Source: an uncultured Elusimicrobiales bacterium
Lineage (GTDB): Bacteria; Elusimicrobiota; Elusimicrobia; Elusimicrobiales; Elusimicrobiaceae
Length of the DNA: 64,000 nucleotides
Direction: 5' to 3'
Assembly (NCBI GenBank): GCA_944326765.1
Contig: CALVFE010000001.1
Span: forward strand, 1 to 64,000
Part shown: positions 4,537 through 40,217 of the stretch, in pieces
Numbering within the stretch: the stretch's first letter is position 1
Layout of the letters: the number at the start of each line of letters is the position of its first letter
Translations under genes and position numbers: made by a program
Notes under the pieces: model-generated
What the model was told of the DNA's origin: nothing
Databases searched by the model: none
What the model saw: only the letters and a program-made list of their open reading frames with translations

Positions 4537-5948
4537 ATATCAACCGTTTAGTACACCCGGGGTTTTGGTTTGGGAAGACCCATCAAGAAGACGCGCTCCA
4601 GTTAGCGCGTATGGGCGTGGGCGGTTTTTGTCTTTACGGCGGCACCCGTACGGAAGTGGCGCGGCTGACGCACGCGTTGCGGGCGGCGTCGCCCCATAAA
4701 CGAATTTTGATTTCCGCCGACTATGAAGACGGCCTGGGGCGCTGGCTGCCTGATGCCGAGTTGCTGCCGTCGAATATGGCTTTGGGTGCAGCAAATGACG
4801 AAACTTTGGCGTACGAAAAAGGGCTGATTACCGCTCGACAAGCCAAAAGCCTGGGCGTGGATTGGGTGTTTGCGCCGGTTGCAGATTTAGCCAACCACCC
4901 GGATAATCCCATCGTCAACACTCGTTCTTTTGGAGCGGATCCGGAACAAGTAACCCGCTTAGCCGGTGCTTTTATGGACGGGCTTTCCGAAGGCGGCGTC
5001 TTAAACAGTTTAAAACATTTTCCGGGGCATGGAAACACCGCCACGGACTCCCACCTGGCACTGTCGGTGCTGCTCTCGACCAAACAACATATTTTAACCC
5101 ATGAACTGATCCCGTTTAAAAAGCTGCTTTCCAAAGCGGATTGCGTTATGGTGGGACACTTGCTGGTGCCGGCGTGGGACGAGCAATATCCCGCCTCCAT
5201 GTCTAAAGAAATAATCGGAAATCTGCTGCAAAAAGAAATGTCCTTCCCCGGCTGCATATGCACCGATGCTTTGTGTATGAAAGCGTTGGGTAACGAAAAG
5301 CAAGCCGCGCTCGCGGCTTTTTTGGCGGGCGCACATATTTTGCTCGTACCCGAGAAACCTTTTGAATTGCTTGAGTTTTTAAATCAACAAACGCTTCCGG
5401 CCGATCAAATAACCCATGCCCTGCAAATTCAAAATTTGCTTTGCGCCCGCGCGGACGAAGTTCCCTCTCTGCCCGAGGAAGAGGCTTTTGCCTCTACGGA
5501 TTTTGCAGCCCGTACCGCCTGTAAAGCGCTTACCCTGCTGGGCACGCCTCTTTGGGTAAAACCAGGCGATACGCTGTATTATGTATCGGTGGGGAATGAT
5601 GAACATCTTTCCGAAAACCCCTTCCTACAAACCCTCTGCCAAAAAGGCGTTCGCGTGCGCCCATTTGAAGGAACGGCGGAAAAAGCAGTCGTTTTATGCT
5701 GGAGGCGCTATCAGGCGGCCAAAGGAAAAATCGGATTAGACGAAGCGGAACTTTCATTCGCGCGCGCCGTATTGCAACACAGCAAACAGAATCTGGTAAT
5801 CAGTCTTTCCAATCCTTGGATTACCCAACACCTGCCCTGTAATGGCAAATTATTTACGTTTAGCCCCGCGCCGGTTTTTCAGCAAGCGGCCGCGGAAGTA
5901 TTATTAGGCAACCTGACGCCAAAAGGGAAAATGCCTGTTTTATTATGA
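4533..5948 (+). CDS. nagZ: Beta-N-acetylhexosaminidase, GH3 NagZ type, with extra C-terminal domain
   Basis: A GH3 enzyme that removes GlcNAc from GlcNAc-anhydroMurNAc(-peptide). The NagZ catalytic loop KHFPGHG is at residues 161-167 with DSH at about 172-174, and the likely nucleophile is Asp245 in CTDALCM. At 471 residues it is about 130 longer than E. coli NagZ; the extra C-terminal part resembles the alpha/beta sandwich of two-domain GH3 enzymes. Start ATG 4533 overlaps the anmK stop (ATGA); the frame is open upstream to 4479 but that lies inside anmK. No signal peptide, so it is cytoplasmic. It ends back to back with the next minus-strand gene, with no gap. Confidence 0.93.
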   Translation: MNINRLVHPGFWFGKTHQEDALQLARMGVGGFCLYGGTRTEVARLTHALRAASPHKRILISADYEDGLGRWLPDAELLPSNMALGAANDETLAYEKGLITARQAKSLGVDWVFAPVADLANHPDNPIVNTRSFGADPEQVTRLAGAFMDGLSEGGVLNSLKHFPGHGNTATDSHLALSVLLSTKQHILTHELIPFKKLLSKADCVMVGHLLVPAWDEQYPASMSKEIIGNLLQKEMSFPGCICTDALCMKALGNEKQAALAAFLAGAHILLVPEKPFELLEFLNQQTLPADQITHALQIQNLLCARADEVPSLPEEEAFASTDFAARTACKALTLLGTPLWVKPGDTLYYVSVGNDEHLSENPFLQTLCQKGVRVRPFEGTAEKAVVLCWRRYQAAKGKIGLDEAELSFARAVLQHSKQNLVISLSNPWITQHLPCNGKLFTFSPAPVFQQAAAEVLLGNLTPKGKMPVLL

Positions 5949-6959
5949 TTAAGGAAAAATAAACTGCGCATCAAACCCGCTCATGCGAGCCCATTTTTTG
6001 TCCTTCCACACCAACAAACCGGGACGCGCCTGTTGAAAATGATTCCACCGATGAAATAAGAAATCGCGCGTATTGCGAACAGAAGTCATACTAACGGAAA
6101 AAACTTCTTCTTCCGGCAACGCGTTTGCCAAGGAATAGCGCCAATCGTATGCCGCGGCCAGCGGAGAAACAAAGAGAAAGAAAACCGCTTCGGGATCATA
6201 TTGCCGCCATTGCGCCAACCGACGCCGAATATGAAAACCGCGCACCGCTTCGGCGGCGGGGAGTTCTTGGGAAGACAAAATTAAATTAGAATTGTCTTGT
6301 TTAAAATAACCTTCCTCTTTGACGGAAGGATCTCCTATGCCGGCTATCGCAAACCCATCTTTCACAAAAGAACGGATAAAACTCTTATGGCGGGGCGCGG
6401 CCGTAAATTCGGAAGCGAACCGAATCCCCGTATCGGGCAGATATTCCGCCAAGATAATAATCCGGCGCTGCGGAAACACCTGTTGATATCGCGTTACTAT
6501 TTTTTTAAATGCCGCGGCGGCTTGCACATCTTCCGCCCGACCTCCGCATAAAACGAAACGAACCGATTCCTGTATGCCACGTGCAAAATCAATCGGTACG
6601 TTTGTAAAGACAGAGATCAGTCCAGCCGGCAAATGCGCTTGTCTTTTAAAAAAATCCAACTGTTGTACTCGAAGCGTTTGGTCTTTGAGCAGCAGCCGAT
6701 TGCTCATCACCGCCCAAGCTTCCAAACGTTCTGAAAGAGCCGGCGCCACTGGAGAGATCCGCCCGTTTAACCACAAACGCATTCCTTCCTGCTCTACCGT
6801 CATACGTTGCCGCGCCTGCAACAAGGCCGTTCGGCTGGCCGCCAGCGACGGATTTCCCGGTTTTGCCAATGCTTTTTGGGCGCCTTCCCACGCTTTTTGC
6901 CACGTCTGGGCGGAAAGACAAATCGGCCAAAATAAAAACAAAAATAAAAATTTTCTCAT
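5949..6959 (-). CDS. Secreted protein of unknown function
   Basis: A 336-residue protein with a clear signal peptide (MRKFLFLFLFWPICLSAQ) and no domain I can name with confidence. The mature part starts with a helical region of about 100 residues. An alpha/beta-like part follows, with RRIIILAEYLPDTG near the middle, and the C terminus is rich in aromatic residues. The frame is open upstream to 7019, but that extension crosses the terminator at 7016-7041. ATG 6959 is followed at once by the signal peptide, so I chose it. No SD is visible; a TATATA box at 6966-6971 is so close that the transcript may be leaderless. Confidence 0.75.
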   Translation of the reverse strand: MRKFLFLFLFWPICLSAQTWQKAWEGAQKALAKPGNPSLAASRTALLQARQRMTVEQEGMRLWLNGRISPVAPALSERLEAWAVMSNRLLLKDQTLRVQQLDFFKRQAHLPAGLISVFTNVPIDFARGIQESVRFVLCGGRAEDVQAAAAFKKIVTRYQQVFPQRRIIILAEYLPDTGIRFASEFTAAPRHKSFIRSFVKDGFAIAGIGDPSVKEEGYFKQDNSNLILSSQELPAAEAVRGFHIRRRLAQWRQYDPEAVFFLFVSPLAAAYDWRYSLANALPEEEVFSVSMTSVRNTRDFLFHRWNHFQQARPGLLVWKDKKWARMSGFDAQFIFP

Positions 6960-7015
6960 TCGTTTTATATAGATTAAAAGAGGTTCTGCAAGAAATATTC
7001 TCCTGATTCCTAAGA

Positions 7016-7045
7016 ACAAAAACTCCGTTTGCCGCGGAGTTTTTT
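7016..7045 (-). terminator. Terminator after guaD (stem works on both strands)
   Basis: Stem AACTCCG (7021-7027) / CGGAGTT (7035-7041) with a 7-base loop. On the minus strand it is followed by TTTTTGTTC, which ends the long dnaX-recR-comEC-guaD operon. Confidence 0.8.
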
Positions 7046-7053
7046 GGAAAAAT

Positions 7054-7542
7054 TTAATAAACTATTTTGTCAGATTTTTGTTTCCATTTTTCAAACGGTT
7101 CATTCCTGTTGTCCACCGCGACACAAAAAGTTTTCAGCGAGCGTTTTTCCACCGGAAGCGGAACCTCCCGGTAAATAAATTCATCATCAAAGCCATATTT
7201 GGCCGCCGTAAAGCGGTCAGCCGCGAAAAACAAAGCTTTCGGACGCGCCCAATAAATAGCTCCCAAACACATCGGGCAAGGCTCACAAGAAGAATAAATC
7301 ACGCAATCTTTCAATTCGAATGTGCCTAATTTCTTGCACGCTTTGCGAATGGCATCCACTTCCGCATGACGGGTGGGATCATTGGAGGAAGTAACTTGGT
7401 TACAGCCGCGCGCAATAATTTTTCCATCTTTCACAATGACCGCGCCAAACGGGCCGCCCTTACCGCCGGACATGCCTTTTTCAGCCAGCTTAATAGCTTC
7501 TTGCAAAAATTTTTTATGCTGTTTCAGTTCGTCTTGTTCCAT
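7054..7542 (-). CDS. guaD: Guanine deaminase, cytidine-deaminase-fold
   Basis: A 162-residue zinc deaminase. The CDA motifs are HAEVDAI (His59, catalytic Glu61) and PCPMC (Cys89, Cys92), giving the zinc site. The surrounding sequence (SNDPTRHAEV, CEPCPMCLGAIYWARPKA, GFDDEFIY) closely follows B. subtilis GuaD rather than TadA, and the length matches GuaD. It converts guanine to xanthine for purine salvage. It is the last gene of the operon that includes comEC, which is suggestive because ComEC-type uptake can feed nucleobase salvage; that link is inference. tRNA adenosine deaminase is the main alternative. Confidence 0.88.
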   Translation of the reverse strand: MEQDELKQHKKFLQEAIKLAEKGMSGGKGGPFGAVIVKDGKIIARGCNQVTSSNDPTRHAEVDAIRKACKKLGTFELKDCVIYSSCEPCPMCLGAIYWARPKALFFAADRFTAAKYGFDDEFIYREVPLPVEKRSLKTFCVAVDNRNEPFEKWKQKSDKIVY

Positions 7543-7577
7543 CCTATTTCCCTCCCCCGATTGCTTTCTTATTATAG

Positions 7578-9440
7578 CTAAATTTTTACCTGTACGGTTT
7601 TATTTTTTTGAGAAGCAAAAAAACTTTCCCCTTGCCGCACAAAACGGGCGCCCGCCCCTAGGCACACCGAATGATTTTTCTCTGTCAGACAATACGAAAC
7701 TTCGTCTTTTTCGGTTCCGCTGTATCCCGCATTCGTCCAAAAACGTCCGTTCCGGTTTTGATGCTCTGCCCACTGTACCGTTAAGGTTGTCTTCCCGATC
7801 TGCAGAGTATCCCCCGGCCATACCCCCGTTTCAAACGGGCGAATGACTTCGCCGGTTTTAGACAAACCCGATAAATCATTTTTGCCGGCAACCGCCGTAA
7901 AGGCCAATACGGCGTCCGCCCGGCGCACACCCATTTTATAAAGCGCCGCGGCGATTTGTTCTTCTTTCAGTTCTTCGCCAAATACAAAAACCTGTCCGCT
8001 CGGCATCTGCACCAACGCCGTATGACGGTACCATTCGTTTAATAAATAGACCCGCCCCGGCGAAAAGAAAAGCACCTGCCCTGCCGGCGCGGCCAAAGCC
8101 AGTACCAAACAGGGCCAAAAGAGTTTTCGGGCAAAGGCTTTCTGCGGCAGATGAAGCAACCAAAACAATATGGCATAAAAACCGACGATATACCCCGTCC
8201 TCCACGCCGCCGCCGGCAGGGCAGAAAGCCGAAACGAAGCGAAAAATTCCACCAGCGTTTTAAATCCTTCCAAACATTCCCGTACGGGCAGGAGCAATAA
8301 TCCGCCCGCATGAAGCCACGTCAATATATAATAGCTAAACGTCATTGCCATCAGCAGGGAAGCCCACGGCACTAAAATCATATTAGCCAATAATCCAGTC
8401 AAAGACACTTTATAAAATACATTTGTAAATATCGGCAGCAAAATCAGCTGAGTGGCCAGCGTAGCTAGAAAAATCTGCGCAAAGAAACGCCCCCAAGCCG
8501 GCCATTTGCCGGGAAGTTTATAATTGCTTAAACAAACAATAATGGCCAGCGTGGCCAGAAAGGACATCTGAAATCCCGTTTCAAAGACGGACGCCGGCTG
8601 AAAGCACAAAATCAAAAAACAAGAAACCAACAATCCCTGCAACACGCCGCTGTTGCGCCCCAAAAAATAACCAACACACGCACACACCGACATAAAATAA
8701 GCCCGCACCAGCGGGGCATCTGCCCCAGCCGCCAGCGTATAAACTCCCGCAATAGATACGGCGGCCACCAATGTTATTTTTCGGCTGGCGCCAAAGAACG
8801 AACAGACGGCAATCGTAATCAACGTAACGAACCCCACATTCCCGCCGGAAGCAACCAGCAAATGAATCGCCCCGCTGTCTTGAAACGCCGTATAGAGCTG
8901 TGGAGAAATTTCGCCGCGTTCGCCCAGCAAAACGCCGCCCGCAATGGAGGCCAATTCCGGCGGGAAAGACTCGGCAAACACGCGCAGCATGTCTGCCCGT
9001 ATCCAACGAATCAACCGCAAGGGAAACGGCGCCGGTTCAATTACTTGGGCTTGGGAAACTTTTATTTCGGTAAAAATATGTTTGTAGGATAAATAGCGCC
9101 GCCAGTCAAAATTACCCAGCAAATCAATTCCATAGGGTTGCTGCAAACGGCCTTTTACTTCCAAAACATCTTTCCATTGCGGATTAAAATCGGGGAAACG
9201 GGCATACACATATCCGTCCGCCGGCGCACCGTTGACAGACAGAACCTTTAACGCCACATTGTTGGATTGTTTCTTTTGAACAGGAAACCCCTCCACCCGC
9301 GCCGCAAGGGTAACCTGTTTAAGCGGCAAAGCATGAAAAACGTCCTTGGAAGAAGGAACCGGACGATAAAATAAAACCAACCAAAAAATCAGCGCCGCCA
9401 AACACCACAAAAGCGGCCGCTTATACCAATCGGGGTGCAT
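7578..9440 (-). CDS. comEC: ComEC/Rec2-family DNA-uptake channel with degenerate C-terminal domain
   Basis: A 620-residue membrane protein. Two N-terminal hydrophobic stretches are followed by an OB-like soluble domain (residues ~50-160). The Competence domain then has about 8-10 membrane segments and the signature HLLVASGGNVGFV. A C-terminal part (~470-620) occupies the place of the metallo-beta-lactamase domain but lacks its HxHxDH motif, reading FTAVAGKNDLSGL there. The protein is shorter than typical ComEC (about 750-800). ComEC moves single-stranded DNA across the inner membrane. Start overlaps the recR stop (TAATG). Confidence 0.9.
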   Translation of the reverse strand: MHPDWYKRPLLWCLAALIFWLVLFYRPVPSSKDVFHALPLKQVTLAARVEGFPVQKKQSNNVALKVLSVNGAPADGYVYARFPDFNPQWKDVLEVKGRLQQPYGIDLLGNFDWRRYLSYKHIFTEIKVSQAQVIEPAPFPLRLIRWIRADMLRVFAESFPPELASIAGGVLLGERGEISPQLYTAFQDSGAIHLLVASGGNVGFVTLITIAVCSFFGASRKITLVAAVSIAGVYTLAAGADAPLVRAYFMSVCACVGYFLGRNSGVLQGLLVSCFLILCFQPASVFETGFQMSFLATLAIIVCLSNYKLPGKWPAWGRFFAQIFLATLATQLILLPIFTNVFYKVSLTGLLANMILVPWASLLMAMTFSYYILTWLHAGGLLLLPVRECLEGFKTLVEFFASFRLSALPAAAWRTGYIVGFYAILFWLLHLPQKAFARKLFWPCLVLALAAPAGQVLFFSPGRVYLLNEWYRHTALVQMPSGQVFVFGEELKEEQIAAALYKMGVRRADAVLAFTAVAGKNDLSGLSKTGEVIRPFETGVWPGDTLQIGKTTLTVQWAEHQNRNGRFWTNAGYSGTEKDEVSYCLTEKNHSVCLGAGARFVRQGESFFASQKNKTVQVKI

Positions 9441-14472: not shown

Positions 14473-15717
14473 ATGTATCCGAATTTACAAAAAACCGATC
14501 CGGCCGTTTTTGCGTCTGTAGCCAAAGAACTGGCCCGTCAACGCGAGAAATTAGAATTGATTGCTTCCGAAAATTTTACTTCTTTAGCAGTCATGCAAGC
14601 GCAAGGGTCTGTGCTTACCAACAAATATGCCGAAGGTTATCCGGGCAAACGCTACTACGGCGGCTGCGAATTTGTGGACGAAGTAGAACAGCTCGCCATT
14701 GACCGCGCCAAACAACTTTTCCACGCCGAACACGCCAACGTACAGCCGCACTCGGGCGCACAGGCGAATATGGCGGTGTATTTTGCCCTCCTGCAGCCCG
14801 GCGACACCGTGCTGGGATTAAACCTCTCCCACGGCGGACACCTGACCCATGGCCACCCGATGAATTTTTCCGGCAAACTATATAACATCGTAGCGATGAA
14901 TGTGCGGCCGGACACCGAAGAAATCGATTACGACGAAGCCGCCAAACTCGCGCTGGAACACAAACCCAAACTCATTATGGCGGGCGCTTCCAACTATTCG
15001 CGCGTGTTTGACTGGAAACGACTGCGCGACATCGCCGACTCCTGCGGGGCCTATTTGGCGTGCGACGTAGCACACTACGCCGGGCTCATTGCCGCCGGAG
15101 AATATCCCAATCCTTTCCCGTATGCCGACGTGGTTACCACGACCACGCATAAAACGCTGCGCGGCCCGCGCGGCGGATTAATTTTATGCAAAGAAGCGCT
15201 GGCAAAAGCCATTAATTCCGCCGTGTTCCCCGGCACGCAAGGCGGCCCGTTAATGCACGTCATTGCAGGGAAAGCCGTTTGTTTTGGGGAAGCGTTAAAA
15301 CCCGAATTTAAAGCGTACCAGCATCAAGTCAAATTAAACGCCGCCGAACTGGCTAAACAGCTGATCGCCCGCGGATACCGGCTGGTGGCGGGCGGCACCG
15401 ACAGCCATGTGATGTGCATCGATCTTCGTTCCAAAGGGCTTACCGGCAAAGCCGCCGAAGCGGCCTTGGATAAAGCCGGTATTACCGCCAATAAAAATAC
15501 AATTCCGTTTGATCCAGAAAAGCCGTTTGTTACCAGCGGGCTGCGTTTGGGTACGCCGGCGGTAACCACCCGCGGCATGAAGGAAGCGGATATGGCACAG
15601 GTGGCTTCCTTTATTGATGAAGCCATCTCCCATGCCCAAGACGATATCTTCCTAGCGCAAACGGCAGCAAAGGTAAAAAAATTCTTGGAGGACTTCCCGC
15701 TCTACCCGGAATTATAA
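14473..15717 (+). CDS. glyA: Serine hydroxymethyltransferase
   Basis: A 414-residue PLP enzyme converting serine and tetrahydrofolate to glycine and methylene-THF. Signatures are LIASENFTS near the N terminus, [15 protein letters not shown], the PHSGAQAN box, and the PLP-lysine region [16 protein letters not shown]. The C-terminal [14 protein letters not shown] is also present. Length matches bacterial SHMT. The SD GAGGAG is strong. It stands alone between the divergent DHS-like operon and its own terminator at 15739. Confidence 0.98.
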
Positions 15718-15867: not shown

Positions 15868-16986
15868 ATGAAAAGTTTTCGTTTTCTGTGTTTTTGTTTT
15901 TCCTGGACAGTCGTGTGGCTGAGTATACCTAACGGGCTCTATGCCCAAAAAGGCAGCGCTTTCCGCCAAACGGCACAGGCCGTTTTGGGCAAATCCGCTA
16001 TCGCTGCCGCCGCCCTTCCGCAAGTGCTGCCCAAAATAGAAACGGCTGCCCGAACGGCCATAGGAATAAAGCCGGTTTTCCGCACTCCCAAAGACATTCG
16101 CTTTTCCATAGCCAAATTGCAATCAGCCGCTTTAATTGCGCTCCCGGAGAAAAACCAACCCTCTGCTACCGCTTTCGTTTTTAAAACCCGCTATAATGGA
16201 CGGGAAGAAATATGGGCAGTAACGGCTGGACATATTGCAAAAGGAATGGGAGACCGTTTTAATTTGATTTTTTACGGAAATAACAAAAGAATTGTAGTAC
16301 CCGGACACGCCGTTCAATACGGGCCGAATATGCTTTCCGATATTGCCTTAATTCAACTCCCATCGGATCTGCCGCCGGAAATCATACCGCTTCCCTTGGC
16401 GCAAGCGCCTGCTTGTCCGGGAGAAGCTTTTATTTCCGCCGGCTATTCGGGAAACCGTTTTGTCTATACCGGCGTGCAAAACCTGCAGAAAGATAATATG
16501 CGTTTTTTACGGACCAGTTTTCACGTTTCGACCGGCTCCCGCGCCGGCTTGTGCGGAGCGCCCCTCCTCAATGCCGCAGGAGAGGCCGTGGGTATTCATT
16601 GCGGCAGCGTCTGGAACAAAGAAACGGGATATGCCACCAGCGTCGCCCTGTTGCCTTACTTGCTGCATGCCCAACACGAAGGAACCGCTGAATTACCTAT
16701 CGTAGCCAACGGAAAAATATTGGGAAATATCAAAACGACGGAACATATACACTCCCTGGAAGGATTAGACGAACAAGGAAATGCACTCTCTTTTTATCAA
16801 ACGGAAAACCGGCTGCCCCAATCCACCATTACCTCGTTTTTAAATTTTCCGAAAACCCGATTTTTGCGTTTTTTGGTAGAAGACCGAAAAAATAAACCGC
16901 TCGAATTTGATATGCATCACCTCTTTCGTTATTTAATTTATGATATACAAACAGGAAATTCCTTTGAAAAAACAGTGAATTGGTAA
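15868..16986 (+). CDS. Secreted chymotrypsin-fold protein 1, Cys at nucleophile position
   Basis: A 372-residue protein with signal peptide (cleavage near YA-QKG, residue 26). The trypsin-like domain spans about residues 90-270. His122 is in AVTAGHIAKG, Asp158 in LSDIALIQLP, and the nucleophile motif is GLCGAPLL with Cys229 where serine proteases have Ser. VGIHCGS follows, as in chymotrypsin-fold enzymes. A C-terminal module of about 95 residues (NGKILGNIKTTEHIHSLE onward) is shared with the three downstream genes. Probably a His-Asp-Cys peptidase of the periplasm or exterior; activity is inferred. First of four tandem paralogues. Confidence 0.82.
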   Translation: MKSFRFLCFCFSWTVVWLSIPNGLYAQKGSAFRQTAQAVLGKSAIAAAALPQVLPKIETAARTAIGIKPVFRTPKDIRFSIAKLQSAALIALPEKNQPSATAFVFKTRYNGREEIWAVTAGHIAKGMGDRFNLIFYGNNKRIVVPGHAVQYGPNMLSDIALIQLPSDLPPEIIPLPLAQAPACPGEAFISAGYSGNRFVYTGVQNLQKDNMRFLRTSFHVSTGSRAGLCGAPLLNAAGEAVGIHCGSVWNKETGYATSVALLPYLLHAQHEGTAELPIVANGKILGNIKTTEHIHSLEGLDEQGNALSFYQTENRLPQSTITSFLNFPKTRFLRFLVEDRKNKPLEFDMHHLFRYLIYDIQTGNSFEKTVNW

Positions 16987-16991
16987 AAAAT

Positions 16992-18170
16992 ATGAAAAAA
17001 CTATATATATTGCTTATCCTCGCTTGTTGTGGTATGATGCCGCTGCAAGCGCAGGCACAAAAAAATTTAATAAAAGCCGGCGAAAAATTATCTGCGGCCG
17101 GAGTACGCAACACGGCTGGAATAGCCCCGATTCAAATGGCAGAAATGAGCGCAACGAAAGGCTTGTCGGCGGCCGCGGCATTCAATATATCGCGTCAAAT
17201 CATTGAACAGTCTCAGCTCAAAAAATCTTTCTTGATGACGCCTTCCTTAACCCCTTTTGAGCAATATGCCCCGCGGTTTATTTTCACTATTTCCCCGCAA
17301 GGGATAAAAAATCCTTTCCGCGGAAGCGGTTTTGTCTTTGCCGAACAACATGAAGGAAAAACTGTCTTATGGGGTTTTACGGCCGCCCACATTGCGCGCG
17401 GCATGGGAACGGATGTCAACGTTACTTTCTACCTGCACGGACAAGAATATACTTATCCGGCGCGAGTGGTTTCCATTGGACGCAAATATGGTTTAAACGC
17501 CGCTTTAATCCAGCTGCCGCAAGAAGTTGCCGAAGTCGCCATACCCGTAATTGCGCGCAGCCAGCTTCCAAAACCAGGCGATCAATTGTTTACCTACGGA
17601 TTCAGTGCCGGCATATACAAAAAGACCTTGCGCCGTGTGATTGCCGCCAATGCGGAACGGGTTGTCGCGGATTTCTCCTCGTTTAACCGTCCCAAGCCTG
17701 GCTTTTGCGGCAGTTTGGTATTAGACGCGCAAGGCAAAGCCGTAGGAATTGAAGTGGGAGGTTATTCTCCCAAAAATGACAACCTCCATTGGTATATGCA
17801 ACGCAACCAATTGAAATTTCCCAAAGGAGATTTGTCTTACATCAGCGAAGTCGTTCCCTTCTCCCGAGCTTACGATTTGCTTATGGAATATCGCCAAACA
17901 GGTTCCGCCAGCCGTATGATGTTGTTTGACGGAATCCCGTTAGGGAAACTGGCCGCTGATGAATTTGTCGAAGGCATTACCGTACGGTATGCAGACGGCA
18001 CTTATAAGTATATAGAAAGAAACCCTTTTTTCAGCCTGACGGACTTAGAAAAACTCTTTCCCCTGCGTTATGCAATAGCAGCCGAAGTAGTGATTAATAA
18101 AAACCGTACACAGATGCTGGGGTATTGGGTAGATTTACAGAAGAGAGAAGCCAAGCGGATAGGAGACTAA
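16992..18170 (+). CDS. Secreted chymotrypsin-fold protein 2, altered triad
   Basis: A 392-residue paralogue with signal peptide ending at QAQA-QKN. His133 is in GFTAAHIARGMG. The Asp position is Asn169 (GLNAALIQLP), and the nucleophile motif is GFCGSLVL with Cys239, where Pro of the usual CGxP is also changed. The triad is therefore His-Asn-Cys, so this member may be weakly active or non-catalytic. The C-terminal module is present (LFDGIPLGKLAADEFVEGI). The ATG at 16992 is used rather than the TTG at 16980, which overlaps gene 1; only 5 bases separate them. Confidence 0.8.
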   Translation: MKKLYILLILACCGMMPLQAQAQKNLIKAGEKLSAAGVRNTAGIAPIQMAEMSATKGLSAAAAFNISRQIIEQSQLKKSFLMTPSLTPFEQYAPRFIFTISPQGIKNPFRGSGFVFAEQHEGKTVLWGFTAAHIARGMGTDVNVTFYLHGQEYTYPARVVSIGRKYGLNAALIQLPQEVAEVAIPVIARSQLPKPGDQLFTYGFSAGIYKKTLRRVIAANAERVVADFSSFNRPKPGFCGSLVLDAQGKAVGIEVGGYSPKNDNLHWYMQRNQLKFPKGDLSYISEVVPFSRAYDLLMEYRQTGSASRMMLFDGIPLGKLAADEFVEGITVRYADGTYKYIERNPFFSLTDLEKLFPLRYAIAAEVVINKNRTQMLGYWVDLQKREAKRIGD

Positions 18171-18171
18171 T

Positions 18172-19377
18172 ATGAAAATACAAACAGGGTTAGCAAGCAT
18201 AGGCATGGCTGCTTTGTTGCTGACGGGGATCAACCCGCCTGCTTATGCACAAAAAAATATTCCAAAAGTTTTGCATAAACTGTTATTACAGAAAAAACTT
18301 GTATCACAGCCAAACTTAAAAAAGGATTTACACCTTAACACAAAAGCCTTAGATGCAATAACTTTTTCTAAAATTTCAAATCAAGGAGGCTTCCGTTCTG
18401 TCGCCCCTTTATTTAGACCAAATTTTTCTTTGTTTGCACCGCGCCCGCTGCAACCCCCGCCGGCTCTGATACGCCGCGCAGTTTTTACGCTGCAATATGA
18501 TCCCCAATCGCGCGGAAGCGGCTCCGCCTTTGCCGTTATGATCAACAAAGAGGTTTGGGGGGTTACTGCGCGCCATGTATTAGATGATATTGGGCGCTCT
18601 CCCTTTATGTCCGTAAACGATAAATCCGGCAAACCCGTTTTTTTCCAAATACATTCCGTACGGGAAGGAAACATTCATGGCGCGGATATCGCGATTTTCC
18701 GCATTCCCCCAAAGGCGCGGGCGTTCATTACCCCGCTCAAGCCGGACTACCAACTGCCGCAAGCAAATTCTTTTGTACAGTCCGCCGGTTTTTCGCACGG
18801 GAATTTTGGCTGGTTTTCTCACGTTGGAGTATTATTCGCCAGCAAACACCGCATTCTGGCCCGATATGAAGATTTTCCGATTCTCAGCGGCTATTGCGGC
18901 TCCCCCTTATTAAAAAACGGGAAGGTAATCGGCGTTTTTACGGGCATTTTCCCGGCGGAAACGGCTCAAAAAGCGGACTGGTTTAAATTGTTGTCCAGAG
19001 AATTTAAAACGCCCATTAACTCCTTTAATCACATTGTTCCCATTGATTGGGTACGCATGTTGGTACAGGAAACGCAACATACCAACAGCATCGAAGGAAC
19101 TCCCTTAAAATTTTTAGGAAAAACGTTAGGCCTTTTACATACGGATGAAAATGTACATTCCATTCAGCAACTGCGTAATGGCGTATTAATCAAAACGATT
19201 TATGCCTATCCTTTTATGGATTATAACAACTTGGAGCGTTTTTTAGATATTGCTCCTACAGATATGATCCGTATTACTTTGCATAAAGGAGACCGTTCCT
19301 CTTCCCGCAAAAAAGTTATCCGGTATGATTGGGATATTGCAACGGAAAAAATAGAAAGAAATGAAGAAAAAATTTAA
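18172..19377 (+). CDS. Secreted chymotrypsin-fold protein 3, Cys at nucleophile position
   Basis: A 401-residue paralogue with signal peptide ending YA-QKN. The catalytic-site residues are His135 (WGVTARHVLDD), Asp172 (HGADIAIFRIP) and Cys242 (SGYCGSPLL). It has a longer Pro/Arg-rich linker before the domain (residues ~75-102) and the shared C-terminal module (FLGKTLGLLHTDENVHSI). It starts one base after the stop of gene 2, with SD AGGAGA. The triad is intact if Cys is the nucleophile. Confidence 0.82.
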   Translation: MKIQTGLASIGMAALLLTGINPPAYAQKNIPKVLHKLLLQKKLVSQPNLKKDLHLNTKALDAITFSKISNQGGFRSVAPLFRPNFSLFAPRPLQPPPALIRRAVFTLQYDPQSRGSGSAFAVMINKEVWGVTARHVLDDIGRSPFMSVNDKSGKPVFFQIHSVREGNIHGADIAIFRIPPKARAFITPLKPDYQLPQANSFVQSAGFSHGNFGWFSHVGVLFASKHRILARYEDFPILSGYCGSPLLKNGKVIGVFTGIFPAETAQKADWFKLLSREFKTPINSFNHIVPIDWVRMLVQETQHTNSIEGTPLKFLGKTLGLLHTDENVHSIQQLRNGVLIKTIYAYPFMDYNNLERFLDIAPTDMIRITLHKGDRSSSRKKVIRYDWDIATEKIERNEEKI

Positions 19378-20608
19378 TCTAATAGCAAGCTGCGTACTGC
19401 TTTTGAACATAGGTTTTGCTTCAAATATTTACGGTCAAAAAAACCTGTTGCCGGTGCTTGCGGCAACCGGCCCCAAAACGCTGGAAAAAATTCCTGTGGC
19501 CGTCGCCCCCGCTGTTGGGAAAACGATTCCGGCAATCGTCCAACAAGCGCAAAATGCGGCAAAACCGATGCCGCTTGCGTTACAAAATTCATTATTGCCG
19601 CCGGCACGCTTGGAAAATCTGCCGCAAAAAATTTCCCAACAGATAAACGCGTCTTTGTCCAATACCCAAACCCTGCAGGAAAAGCTAAAACGCAAAAAAA
19701 TAGCGCTTTTTGACGCAAATGCAATAGAAAAAACCGCTTTTTTAACAAACCCTTATTTGCGCGACATCATACCGCTTTCTCCTACCGCTTTCTTTATAGA
19801 GGAAATCTATGAAGGAAAGAAATATATTTGGGGTGTTACTGCAGCACACGCAGCGGACTGTCTCCTTCCAGACATAATGGCACACCTGACCATTTTGGAT
19901 TCATTTCCGTTGGAATTCCCAGTAAAAATAGTCGCTAAAGGAAATACCGGTATGGCGGATATCGCGCTTTTTTCCGTTCCACAAGAAATGGAAGAATTTA
20001 TTCGGCCGATCCCCATTTCTTCTCAAGAGGTGCAAGTAAATGAAAATCTCCGTTCGTATGGTTTCTTCGAGTCAGATTTTCATATTGTACGCAACCGCCG
20101 GGTATTAGCGGCAACGCCCAGCCGAATTATTACTTCTTTTGAATTTGGAAAACACGATCGGGCAGGCGCCTGCGGCGGGCCGTTGATTAATGAAAACAAT
20201 GAGCTTGTGGGAATCCACTGCGGCAGCTCCGAAAAGAAACAGGAAAGTTATGCCGTACCCGTTTCGTTTTTAAAAGATTTAATGGAGGCCGCTCATCACA
20301 ACGGCATCAAGCAAAGGAACCTCGTTGTAAACGGAAAAACGGTAGGGCAAATTAATATCGATGAATATATCTATTCGCTCAACGTAACCCGTTTGGGAAT
20401 AACCCTAAAAACTTTTCTCCCCTGGCATGAAGAATCCAAAATTGATTACGACCATTTGGAAAACGCCATTCCGCTCGATAAAGCAAGCGAGCTTAATATC
20501 ATCATTGTAAAAAAAGGAACCCTACAAACGGCTTTTTACGATAACCCTGACAAAAAAATGATAGTCGTGGATTTAAAAACGGGAAAGACAAAAGAATATG
20601 AATTATAA
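19361..20608 (+). CDS. Secreted chymotrypsin-fold protein 4, Cys at nucleophile position
   Basis: A 415-residue paralogue with signal peptide ending YG-QKN. The catalytic-site residues are His163 (WGVTAAHAAD), Asp200 (GMADIALFSVP) and Cys271 (GACGGPLIN), followed by VGIHCGS. The motif GxCGG is the same as in picornaviral 3C proteases. It carries the longest Ala/Gln/Pro-rich N-terminal linker (residues ~27-120) and the shared C-terminal module (VNGKTVGQINIDEYIYSL). It overlaps gene 3 by 17 bases, and the terminator at 20621 ends the operon. Confidence 0.82.
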   Translation: MKKKFNLIASCVLLLNIGFASNIYGQKNLLPVLAATGPKTLEKIPVAVAPAVGKTIPAIVQQAQNAAKPMPLALQNSLLPPARLENLPQKISQQINASLSNTQTLQEKLKRKKIALFDANAIEKTAFLTNPYLRDIIPLSPTAFFIEEIYEGKKYIWGVTAAHAADCLLPDIMAHLTILDSFPLEFPVKIVAKGNTGMADIALFSVPQEMEEFIRPIPISSQEVQVNENLRSYGFFESDFHIVRNRRVLAATPSRIITSFEFGKHDRAGACGGPLINENNELVGIHCGSSEKKQESYAVPVSFLKDLMEAAHHNGIKQRNLVVNGKTVGQINIDEYIYSLNVTRLGITLKTFLPWHEESKIDYDHLENAIPLDKASELNIIIVKKGTLQTAFYDNPDKKMIVVDLKTGKTKEYEL

Positions 20609-20650: not shown

Positions 20651-21790
20651 TCACGATTGTTTTTCTTCTAATAACATTTTTGCGGAGGCATTGCCGCTGT
20701 CTGCCGCTCGCTGCAGCCATTGTTCTCCGGCGGCTTTATCCACGGGTACGCCAAGCCCTTTCCAATAAATCTGGCCTAACACATACTGCGCCGCGACATG
20801 GTTTTGCTCCGCCGCACGCTGAAAGAATTGAATGGCCAGCGGTACGGATTGCGCAGTGCCTTGTCCCTGCATCAACATAAACCCGGTCATATATTGCCCC
20901 TGCGCCTGCCCCCCGGCCGCTGCGTTGGAAAACCAGGCAAAAGCATCTTCATACTTCGGAGGATTTTGACCATAAGCCAATGTCCCCATCATATATTGCG
21001 CATCGGGATTTTTAGCTTGCGCCGCGGTTGCCAGCAATTCCATGGCTTTGGTTTCATCTTTTTCTACGCCTTCCCCTTTTTGATACAACTGGGACAGCTC
21101 ATAAGCCGCCTGCGGCAGCTTATCGCCCTCCGTCCAAGCACGCGTAAACCACTGAAAAGCCGCGTCATCATGTCGGGCAAACGGATATCCCTGGTGAAAG
21201 GCTTGTCCGGCTTCTAACTGGGCTTGCGAATCCCCCTTTTGGGCGCTGTCCAAAACCGTGATAAACCGCGTAATTTCCTCATATAGCTGAGGATCTTCCA
21301 GTTTGATGTCGTCCACAGATGTTTGCGCCGGCTCATATCCCTGCGCCGCCGCTTGCATATACCAATACAAGGCTTCTCCCCGGCTTACAGGCACGCCGCC
21401 CAGTCCTTGTTCATAAAAACGCCCCCATTCGCTTTGTGCAGCCGCATTTGCGGCATTAGCCGCTACTTGCAAATAAGCCGCCGCTTCTTCCAAATTCTGC
21501 GGCACGACTTTCCCTTCAATATAAAGATGCGCCAATTCCCAAGCGGCCTGCATATTCCCGTCTGCCGCGGCTTTGCGATACCATTCGGCAGCCTGTTGGC
21601 CGTCCGGCGCTTTCAACCCTGTTCCCGCCGCATACATACCCGCCAATTCAAAAGCCGCCTGCATATCTCCGGCGCGAGCCGCCGCCAACTTCTGTTCAAA
21701 TACGCGCTGCTGCGGCGTTTTATAAAAAGCAAACCAATAAATCCCCACCAAAACAGCAATGAATAAGAGTATTTTTAAAACTGTTTTCAT
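20651..21790 (-). CDS. Sel1-like repeat (TPR-type) protein, membrane-anchored or secreted
   Basis: A 379-residue protein with an N-terminal hydrophobic segment (residues ~5-22, LKILLFIAVLVGIYWFAFY), probably an anchor because no clear cleavage site follows. The rest is about eight Sel1-like repeats of roughly 36 residues, with the pattern A-x-x-x-L-G/A-x-x-Y-x-x-G-x-G (for example AAFELAGMYAAGTG and AQYVLGQIYWKGLG). Sel1 repeats form protein-binding solenoids. The partner is unknown. A TATAAT (plus 21838-21843 reversed) upstream could be its own promoter. Confidence 0.85.
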   Translation of the reverse strand: MKTVLKILLFIAVLVGIYWFAFYKTPQQRVFEQKLAAARAGDMQAAFELAGMYAAGTGLKAPDGQQAAEWYRKAAADGNMQAAWELAHLYIEGKVVPQNLEEAAAYLQVAANAANAAAQSEWGRFYEQGLGGVPVSRGEALYWYMQAAAQGYEPAQTSVDDIKLEDPQLYEEITRFITVLDSAQKGDSQAQLEAGQAFHQGYPFARHDDAAFQWFTRAWTEGDKLPQAAYELSQLYQKGEGVEKDETKAMELLATAAQAKNPDAQYMMGTLAYGQNPPKYEDAFAWFSNAAAGGQAQGQYMTGFMLMQGQGTAQSVPLAIQFFQRAAEQNHVAAQYVLGQIYWKGLGVPVDKAAGEQWLQRAADSGNASAKMLLEEKQS

Positions 21791-34762: not shown

Positions 34763-37564
<2,802 letters not shown>

Positions 37565-37565
<1 letters not shown>

Positions 37566-38674
37566 CACGCTTTTACCGGCATAATTACATATTTAAAGGT
37601 CGGATCCCCTACCGGTTCCACTAATACCGGCTGAGAAGCGTTGATAAACGAAAAAGAAACTTTCTCCGTCGATATATTCTTTAATACGTCAATAATATAC
37701 TGCGGATTAAAAGCCGTATCAAATACTTCCTGCGTATATTCAATGGGAAGTTCGTCGGTAAATTCCATATTCTGCGAATTGGAGGAAACCGTCAGCGTAT
37801 TATTTTCCAACTTATATTTCACCACGCTTCCAAATTCCCCCGCACACAATGCTGCCCGCCGAGTAGAAGCCAACAATTCTTTGGAAAATACTTCAAACCC
37901 GATATTTTTTTTGGTGGGAATTACTTGGTTGTAATTCGGAAAATTGCCTTCAATCAACCGGGAAATAAAAGTGGTTTCGTTCATCATAAAACTGACTTGG
38001 TTGGAGGACACATTTACTTCAATTTTACTGTCTTTTCCGGGTTTCGCGATGGTAATATAGCGGCATACTTCCGTCAGCACTTTGGTGGGAATAATAATTT
38101 TAAATTCTTTGCTGCCGGGCAACGCTTCGTGAGAAGCAACCGCCAAACGGCCGCCGTCGGTCGCCACAATTTCAAATTTTTCCGCCGTATTATTCCAGAG
38201 CAACCCGTTTAAAATATAGCGGGTTTCCTGGGTGGAAGCGGAAAAAACGGTTTTTTCAATCATTTGCTGCAGCAACAGCGGATCCAATACCACGCTGTTG
38301 GCGTGTTCCACTTCGGGAATAGCCGGATATTCGGATTTCGGAATACCAATCACCCAAAATTTACTTTTCCCTGATTTGATGTGAAATTTATTATTTTCAT
38401 CGCTGTAGAGATTAATTTCTTTATCGTCAGGAAGATTTTTGATAATTTCAGCAAATTCTTTCATCGGAACGGTTAAGCTGCCTTCTTCTACTATTTCGGC
38501 GTTGACGTAATGAACGGTAGCCATTTCCATATCCGTACGAACGAGTTTTAATTTACCGTTTTGAGCTTCTAATAAGAAGTTGTGCAAAATCGGAATGGTG
38601 GTTCGGGACGAAACACCTGCAGAAACAATCTGAATGCCTTCTAAAAGAGTTGCTTTAGTGATATTTATTTTCAT
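37565..38674 (-). CDS. dnaN: DNA polymerase III beta sliding clamp
   Basis: A 369-residue clamp with three repeated clamp domains (N-terminal MKINITKATLLEGIQIVSAG; C-terminal ending YVIMPVKA, the usual end of beta clamps). Recognisable family segments are TDGGRLAVASH and SRLIEGNFPNYNQVIP. It encircles DNA and binds polymerase and repair partners. It is the first gene after oriC on this side. Confidence 0.97.
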
Positions 38675-38865
38675 ATTTTTAATCTCTATATATATAACTT
38701 GTTTATGGTGTGGATACTGTTAATTTTCCTATACATTTCTAAATCTGGTTTTGTGCATAAATTCTTTTTTTTATTCACAGTATGCACTTTTAAAAAAAAG
38801 ATCCTCTGTTTGGTGGGGTTATAAAACGCTTATCCACTGTTTTTTATTTTTTATCCACAGCTTTA
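38675..38865. other. Probable chromosomal origin oriC with DnaA-box cluster
   Basis: The dnaA-dnaN gap is AT-rich and holds several DnaA boxes (consensus TTATNCACA). They are TTATCCACA at 38851-38859 (+), TTATCCACT at 38830-38838 (+), TTATTCACA at 38771-38779 (+), TTATGCACA at 38752-38760 (-) and GTATCCACA at 38709-38717 (-). The first lies inside the last codons of dnaA. T- and A-runs near 38764-38772 and 38791-38798 could aid melting. Gene orientation reverses in this neighbourhood, as expected at an origin. Confidence 0.85.
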
Positions 38866-40217
38866 ATATCCAAAATAATTTGATTGATTTCCGCGGCAAA
38901 AAAAGGATCAGCTTCCACTCTTTCTTTGACGGTGTCGCGTGCATGAACGACGGTGCTGTGATCGCGGTTGAATTCGCGGCCGATTTCCGGCAAAGACAGG
39001 TCGGTTAATTCCGTGGTTAAATACATCGCAACCTGACGCGGCCAGGCAATCGACTGGGTTTTCCGTTTGGAATTAAAATCTTCCATTTTTATATTAAAAT
39101 GTTTGCCTACTATTTTTTTAATGGAATTTACGTTAATAGACAAATCCGTTTCATTGGTTAAAATGTCGGCCAATAATTCTTTTGCAATGGCTATCGTGGG
39201 TACAATCCCGTGCATATTGCAATAAGCTACCAACCGAAACAGAGAACCTTCCAACTCGCGGATATTGGTTTGAATCCCCTCCGCAATAAAAGCCAGTACA
39301 TCGTCGCCGATGTCAAAATTGGTGGAGTCGCGTTTTTGGCGCAGAATGGCGATACGCGTTTCTAAATTCGGACGCTTTACTTCGGCAATAATGCCCGATA
39401 GCAACCGAGAAGAAAGACGTTCGTCCAAATCCAGTTGTTGGGGGGTTCTGTCTGAAGATAACACAATTTGTTTTCGGCTTTCAAATAAAGCGTTAAACGT
39501 GTAAAAAAATTCTACTTCGCTGGCGGATTTTCCGGCCACAAATTGAATATCGTCCATTAAAAAACAATCCAGCGAGCGGTACTTTTTGCGGAAACTTTCC
39601 GAAGATTTATTTTGCAACGCTTCAATATATTCACTGACAAATTCTTCTCCGGACATATATAAAACTTTAGCGTTCGGATTGGTTTTTAAAATTTGGTTTC
39701 CAATCGCATGCAGCAAATGGGTTTTTCCTAATCCGGGGGCGGAATAAATCACCAGCGGATTATTTTCGCGGTTTCCTAATTTATTGACGACGGCTTCAGC
39801 CGCTTTATACGCAAATCGGTTGGAAGGAGATTCGATAAAATTATCAAATGTGTAAGAAGAATTTAACCGCGACGCAAAAGGATTTCTTTTTAAGACGGGT
39901 GTTGCGGCGGCCGGTGCCGGAATCACGTCCTGCGCGGAATTAATGATGGGGGCTGCCGATTGGGCGGCGTATTGATATACGACGTTAATCTCGGCGCCTA
40001 AATGTTTTAAAAAAGCGTCTTTAATAATCGTTTCATAACGTTCGCGTATGGTATTTCCCCAAAATTGGTTGGGAAGGGTAATAGTAAGGAGGCTGTTGTC
40101 GTATGAAAATTTTGCTGGATTGAGCCACATATCATACGGAGCTTTACCTATAATATTTTCAATATCTTTAAATACAGGAACCAATTCCGGGTAAGCTTGT
40201 AAATTTTCCACAATCAC
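38844..40217 (-). CDS. dnaA: Chromosomal replication initiator DnaA
   Basis: A 457-residue AAA+ initiator. N-terminal domain I is followed by a short Ala/Pro linker. Walker A is [16 protein letters not shown] and Walker B is [13 protein letters not shown]. The C-terminal DNA-binding signature is [17 protein letters not shown]. The start at 40217 is GTG; a second GTG at 40211 has a better-spaced SD (GGTGG) and may be the real one, giving 455 residues. The last four codons encode VDKK and overlap a perfect DnaA box. Confidence 0.98.

Follow-up and report, generated by a model that had tools for sequence, protein, structure and literature searches.

Cysteine nucleophiles on the fold of protease clan PA are taken to be characteristic of positive-strand RNA viruses, and in a 2019 comparison of the clan the nine cysteine families represent such viruses, whereas the serine families are found elsewhere (PMC6524800). 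Full-text literature searches of partial coverage found no report of bacterial PA-clan cysteine peptidases, which constitutes weak negative evidence. Here, we describe an array of four adjacent genes in a 64,000-nt stretch of Elusimicrobiota DNA (the window, whose genome record comprises 1.49 Mb in 75 contigs). With a probability of roughly 0.78, copies 1, 3 and 4 of the array would be exported His-Asp-Cys endopeptidases, two of them probably specific for Glu or Gln, accompanied by one probable pseudoprotease, copy 2. If true, the bacterial family would represent a second, cellular case of a PA-fold cysteine nucleophile.

Viral 3C and 3C-like proteases (MEROPS clan PA, families C3, C4, C30 and C37) resemble the Elusimicrobiota proteins in their double-barrel chymotrypsin fold, the order His-Asp/Glu-Cys, the G-x-C-G motif and a His in the S1 pocket, but the Elusimicrobiota proteins are bacterial, carry a signal peptide for export, end in an additional domain of ~100 residues, and have their top similarity to bacterial proteases. 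The V8/glutamyl endopeptidase and Spl proteases (S1B) provide the best sequence matches to the active-site barrel, with the nucleophile-to-His213 spacing and the GIH motif in alignment, yet use Ser in place of Cys and lack both the long N-terminal extension and the additional C-terminal domain of the Elusimicrobiota family. Among solved structures, the HtrA, DegS and DegP proteases (S1C) are nearest in fold to copies 1 and 2, and they have Ser-type homologues in the same genome; unlike the Elusimicrobiota family, which forms a variable accessory array, HtrA has a Ser nucleophile and Asn/Ala at position 213. The periplasmic protease MarP (Rv3671c) is the top Foldseek match and gives a weak NCBIfam match to copy 1 (19.7 bits against a cut-off of 250), the NCBIfam search having returned sub-threshold matches only. 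MarP uses a Ser nucleophile and is membrane-anchored.

Four tandem PA-clan proteins

The four open reading frames (ORFs) lie on the + strand between glyA and a Sel1-repeat gene, where neighbours either abut or share a few bases, and all frames are uninterrupted. Copy 1 (15868..16986, +) has the triad H122-D158-C229, with the nucleophile Cys229 of its G-L-C-G motif encoded at 16552..16554 (+). Copy 2 (16980..18170, +, with a likelier ATG start at 16992) is a His-Asn-Cys paralogue, H137-N173-C243 when numbered from the TTG start, and the Cys codon of its G-F-C-G motif at 17706..17708 (+) specifies Cys243 from TTG or Cys239 from ATG. The triad of copy 3 (18172..19377, +) is H135-D172-C242, with Cys242 of G-Y-C-G encoded at 18895..18897 (+), and that of copy 4 (19361..20608, +) is H163-D200-C271, with Cys271 of G-A-C-G at 20171..20173 (+). 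The first-pass annotation had described four adjacent paralogues, each with a signal peptide, a trypsin-like domain and G-x-C-G, with His in all four and Asn for Asp in copy 2; this description holds, for full-length co-directional ORFs, as do the spacings it gave of 36-37 residues from His to Asp/Asn and 70-71 from Asp/Asn to Cys. Such abutting or overlapping genes on the same strand probably form one operon.

By inspection, each copy begins with a signal peptide, with Q-K directly after the likely cleavage site, followed by ~45-110 residues of mostly low model confidence, the PA-clan domain and the C-terminal domain. Pairwise identity of the four copies is ~23-27%; His, G-x-C-G and nearby glycines are nevertheless invariant. 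Trypsin_2 (PF13365) matches copy 1 (E 8e-8) and copy 2 (E 6e-9) over the gathering cut-off, and copy 3 (E 9e-4) and copy 4 (E 1e-4) under it. Pfam gave no match to a PDZ domain, and some structural alignments extend into the PDZ region of DegS. As for autoprocessing, the 3C-like L-Q-S-A of copy 1 (residues 84-87) was rejected as a site, since it is L-D-H-A/S in distant orthologues and is not conserved.

Conservation of the cysteine nucleophile

A phylum-wide search with a family profile included 66 genomes of the same genus and matched 41 of them at E < 1e-20, and the 40 regions retrieved yielded 111 distinct full or near-full Elusimicrobiota proteins. The nucleophile Cys is kept in 103 of these; the triads are His-Asp-Cys in 92, His-Asn-Cys in 10 and others in 8, with one protein truncated before the His. 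Across the 102 rows that have both His and Cys, His122, Gly227, Cys229, Gly230 and Gly246 are 100% conserved, the invariant glycines being those of the oxyanion hole and the S1 strand. When Cys residues are counted from a point 95 residues ahead of the His through to the C-terminus, 51 of the 103 proteins have none but the nucleophile, and seven of the eight members without a nucleophile are devoid of Cys. In the window, Cys242 is the only Cys of copy 3, and copy 2 has no further Cys outside its signal peptide. Because the nucleophile is so often the sole Cys, and its losers are mostly Cys-free, a free catalytic thiol is indicated rather than a disulfide; a disulfide or structural role was ruled out on the grounds that this Cys is often the only one in the chain.

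Could the Cys mark decayed serine proteases? A single base separates Cys from Ser codons, and the family does include dead copies. However, the close relatives include no Ser-type member, the state shared across the family is Cys, frames are open with low ratios of nonsynonymous to synonymous substitution (dN/dS), and loss runs from Cys to Ala, His, Gln, Met, Asn, Tyr or Ser in the copy-2 lineage only. In a maximum-likelihood tree of 128 domains, built with the nucleophile column masked, the Ser-type HtrA-like sequences fall in one separate clade (support 87), and two Cys/Ser changes suffice, one setting off all Ser-type HtrA-like rows and the other in a dead copy. Decay is accordingly so improbable that we regard it as ruled out by Cys conservation and the tree, and the drift from Ser to Cys in dead copies that the first-pass annotation named as a possible refutation is not seen, the only losses being from Cys forms in a dead lineage descended from them. 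The Cys is conserved across the family phylogeny, and this is a true bacterial PA-clan family, not drift. The bacterial His-Asp-Cys peptidase family that had been proposed is upheld in its conserved Cys, His and Asp and its expected fold, but not for the copy-2 orthogroup, which repeatedly loses the triad; a fast-diversifying bacterial cysteine protease family is probably real.

Predicted fold

The AlphaFold2 model of copy 1 (mean predicted local distance difference test score, pLDDT, 80.8; predicted template modelling score 0.76) has DegS as its best solved match (Z 21.5; root-mean-square deviation, rmsd, 3.1 over 182 residues), and that of copy 2 (mean pLDDT 77.2) matches Deg9 (Z 21.5, rmsd 2.9 over 178 residues). 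The double beta-barrel of clan PA is thus predicted from models that match DegS/HtrA at Z ~21, and the other refuting outcome named in the first-pass annotation, a predicted fold that fails to bring His, Asp and Cys together, is not borne out. The clan PA order of His, Asp and nucleophile, with G-x-[S/C]-G, is found in 92 of the 111 members and in window copies 1, 3 and 4. By fold and triad order, the family belongs within clan PA; it falls outside C3 by score and origin, and outside S1B and S1C by nucleophile, the family Cys aligning on the Ser of SplB and standing where the Ser-type HtrA-like rows have Ser.

The S1 pocket and the relationship to viral 3C proteases

In a hidden Markov model alignment, the family Cys coincides with the catalytic residue of glutamyl endopeptidase and SplB, and a family His with their GIH motif. 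This S1 His, 14-15 residues past the Cys, corresponds to His213 in chymotrypsin numbering, and is His244 in copy 1 (codon 16597..16599, +) and His286 in copy 4 (20216..20218, +). PA proteases specific for Glu or for Gln have His213 as their shared structural element (PMC5508998). Copy 1 has Ser190/His213/Ser216 and copy 4 has His213/Ser216, and among the window copies only these two have the His213 (and Ser216) of S1B. Of all 103 members that keep the Cys, 66 combine His213 with Ser/Thr216; these 66, to which copies 1 and 4 belong, pair a G-x-C-G Cys with an S1 His as picornain C3 does. Copy 2 has Glu213/Gly216 and copy 3 has Phe213/Ile216, the Ser-type HtrA-like rows have mostly Asn/Ala at 213 and Ile at 216, and S1 residue choices mostly track orthogroups. 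From these residues, copies 1 and 4 are probably Glu/Gln-specific, and copy 3, given Phe213, should have a different cleavage preference.

The nucleophile and S1 His shared with 3C raise the question of whether the source of the family was the 3C protease of an RNA virus and not a bacterial serine protease. Picornaviral 3C does appear in the profile search (E 0.001-0.003), and Foldseek matches include viral proteases such as potyviral NIa. Bacterial enzymes nonetheless score higher, with the active-site barrel closest by sequence to SplB and the glutamyl endopeptidases, then to picornaviral 3C, and with DegS/HtrA closest by fold. The Peptidase_C3 profile (PF00548) reaches only 15.9 and 13.5 bits, under its gathering cut-off of 22, the divergence of Ser and Cys forms can be located within the Elusimicrobiota, and the genes lie in the chromosome, flanked by glyA and the Sel1 gene, not in a viral polyprotein. 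Beyond the Elusimicrobiota, coverage consisted of a GTDB scan with a single short pattern, which matched in Elusimicrobiota only, and of phage and plasmid collections, where tblastn against the phage and plasmid records found nothing and no viral contig was confirmed. A viral origin is therefore very unlikely. Given a 3C-like nucleophile and S1 pocket on proteins whose overall similarity is to bacterial serine proteases, convergence with viral 3C is the simpler reading, and 3C-like motifs in metagenomes are not safely viral. If the assignment is true, the switch from Ser to Cys and a 3C-type S1 site could be examined in a bacterial setting that offers active, respecified and dead paralogues together.

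Copy 2 as a probable pseudoprotease

All eight nucleophile losses (to Ala, His, Tyr, Gln, Met, Ser, and twice Asn) lie within the copy-2 orthogroup, whose remaining nine members are His-Asn-Cys. Five of the eight members without a nucleophile are solitary at another locus (e.g. L075 and L066). This separate locus, in other genomes, holds intact triad-less members of the copy-2 lineage at L062, L066, L071, L074 and L075. Reading frames of the triad-less members are open, and dN/dS is ~0.12-0.27 where dS is computable, with copy 2 similar to the other copies, and 0.095 for the dead pair L074/L075, although many dS values are near saturation and the ratios are rough. Triad losses, open frames and low dN/dS together suggest that the copy-2 lineage is a maintained pseudoprotease with intermediates. 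Copy 2 is probably a pseudoprotease or an attenuated, weak enzyme under purifying selection, and the copy in the window may retain some activity.

That an orthogroup is kept under purifying selection without its triad implies a non-catalytic use of the scaffold at least there, and invites the view that all copies are exported, non-proteolytic PA-fold binding proteins whose conserved Cys has a different thiol function (redox, metal, lipid or covalent attachment). Outside the copy-2 orthogroup, however, His, Asp, Cys and the oxyanion glycines are co-conserved among paralogues of ~25% identity, and would be superfluous for pure binding, making this view an improbable one for the family as a whole.

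Proposed mechanism

For copies 1, 3 and 4, cysteine endopeptidase is the most likely assignment. After export via the Sec pathway, the disordered N-terminal segment would be removed or rearranged. The His would deprotonate the Cys, with the Asp orienting the His, and backbone NH groups of G-x-C-G would form the oxyanion hole, such that cleavage would proceed through an acyl-thioester intermediate, as in viral 3C proteases. By homology, copies 1 and 4 would accept Glu or Gln at P1 through the His213/Ser216 site, whereas copy 3, with Phe213, would have another P1 preference; copy 2 may be kept for a binding, regulatory or decoy role. Targets would lie outside the cell (host, diet or rival proteins), and would change fast enough to drive turnover of the genes. 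Such proteins are a possible source of new sequence-specific proteases.

Several points weigh against this proposal. The computations bear on fold, residue conservation, selection and synteny, with signal peptides recognised by inspection; catalysis, cleavage specificity and targets outside the cell are inferred, and the proximity of His, Asp and Cys is implied by fold match and alignment. The ~100-residue C-terminal domain has no assigned function. Ser190, used by some glutamyl endopeptidases, is present in copy 1 and absent from copy 4. Moreover, a His213 mutant lost catalysis yet kept its preference for Glu (PMC5508998), so that His213 is a marker of the class but no proof of P1 preference.

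Locus dynamics

The left border of the array is glyA (serine hydroxymethyltransferase; 14473..15717, +) and the right border is a Sel1-repeat protein gene (20651..21790, -), both conserved. Between them, seven genomes including the window's have the same four orthologues, and others have three or fewer of these or different paralogues. The site is empty in several sister genomes: in G047 and G001, which belong to the same genus and have no family match, glyA and the Sel1 gene are separated by 175 and 86 bases, and in G057 by 253 bases. In genomes sharing the four orthogroups, the protease orthologues are ~40-61% identical to those of the window, as against 93-98% for GlyA and AtpD. The array is a presence/absence hotspot that diverges far faster than its flanks.

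This behaviour bears on where the proteins act. A signal peptide by itself yields periplasmic export, and DegS/HtrA is the closest fold, so that periplasmic HtrA-like proteases of quality control or envelope maturation, not secreted outward, are conceivable. Presence/absence polymorphism, empty sites and the low orthologue identity are, however, unlike housekeeping HtrA, and the same genome already encodes HtrA-type serine proteases; we consider a periplasmic role possible but unlikely. Fast turnover fits extracellular gut targets, although periplasmic work is also compatible with it, and export of such endopeptidases hints at an unexplored protease arsenal in little-known gut bacteria. The first-pass annotation, sound in outline, was incomplete here, having missed this hotspot, the V8/3C-type S1 His of copies 1 and 4, the family's size and its giant multi-domain relatives.

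Arrays of two to five family genes also occur at loci of a second kind (e.g. L081 and L085). At L084, a 763-residue ORF (5417-7708, -) has family sequence at two places in frame, and looks like two protease copies fused together. The window's own genome has a fifth His-Asp-Cys relative (G000 contig C12, L012 1150-2421, -), solitary, apart from the array and with Tyr213.

Giant multi-domain relatives

In the sister genus g12, family domains occur in far longer ORFs. L147 (756-12659, +) has 3,968 codons and four PA-clan domains, three of them His-Asp-Cys; L149 (1489-18690, -) has 5,734 codons and five His-Asp-Cys domains; and L148 (2662-6774, +) has 1,371 codons and one family domain at its C-terminal end. 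L147 and L148 carry signal peptides by inspection, and a Pfam search of the giant ORFs recognised little besides the PA-clan domains. A Cys-type domain is also found in a 3,451-codon ORF of G297, from another family of the phylum. On a speculative and rather doubtful reading, the Elusimicrobiota have evolved a 3C-like radiation of cysteine proteases, with Cys and S1 His, independently of RNA viruses, and the giant exported g12 proteins of 3,968 and 5,734 codons, with several such domains each, may be self-processing polyproteins.

The protein of L151 (2-3322, +) combines two PA domains, the first Cys-type and the second Ser-type, with His213 present in the latter. This pairing is a possible clue to the Ser/Cys switch.

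Other features of the window

No tandem repeats were found within the array, and a promoter and terminator scan of the array gave a number of sites not above that of shuffled sequences. Elsewhere in the window, gyrB, dnaN and dnaA lie at 34763-40217, with a GC-skew minimum at ~38 kb, an arrangement suggestive of a probable replication origin inside the window.

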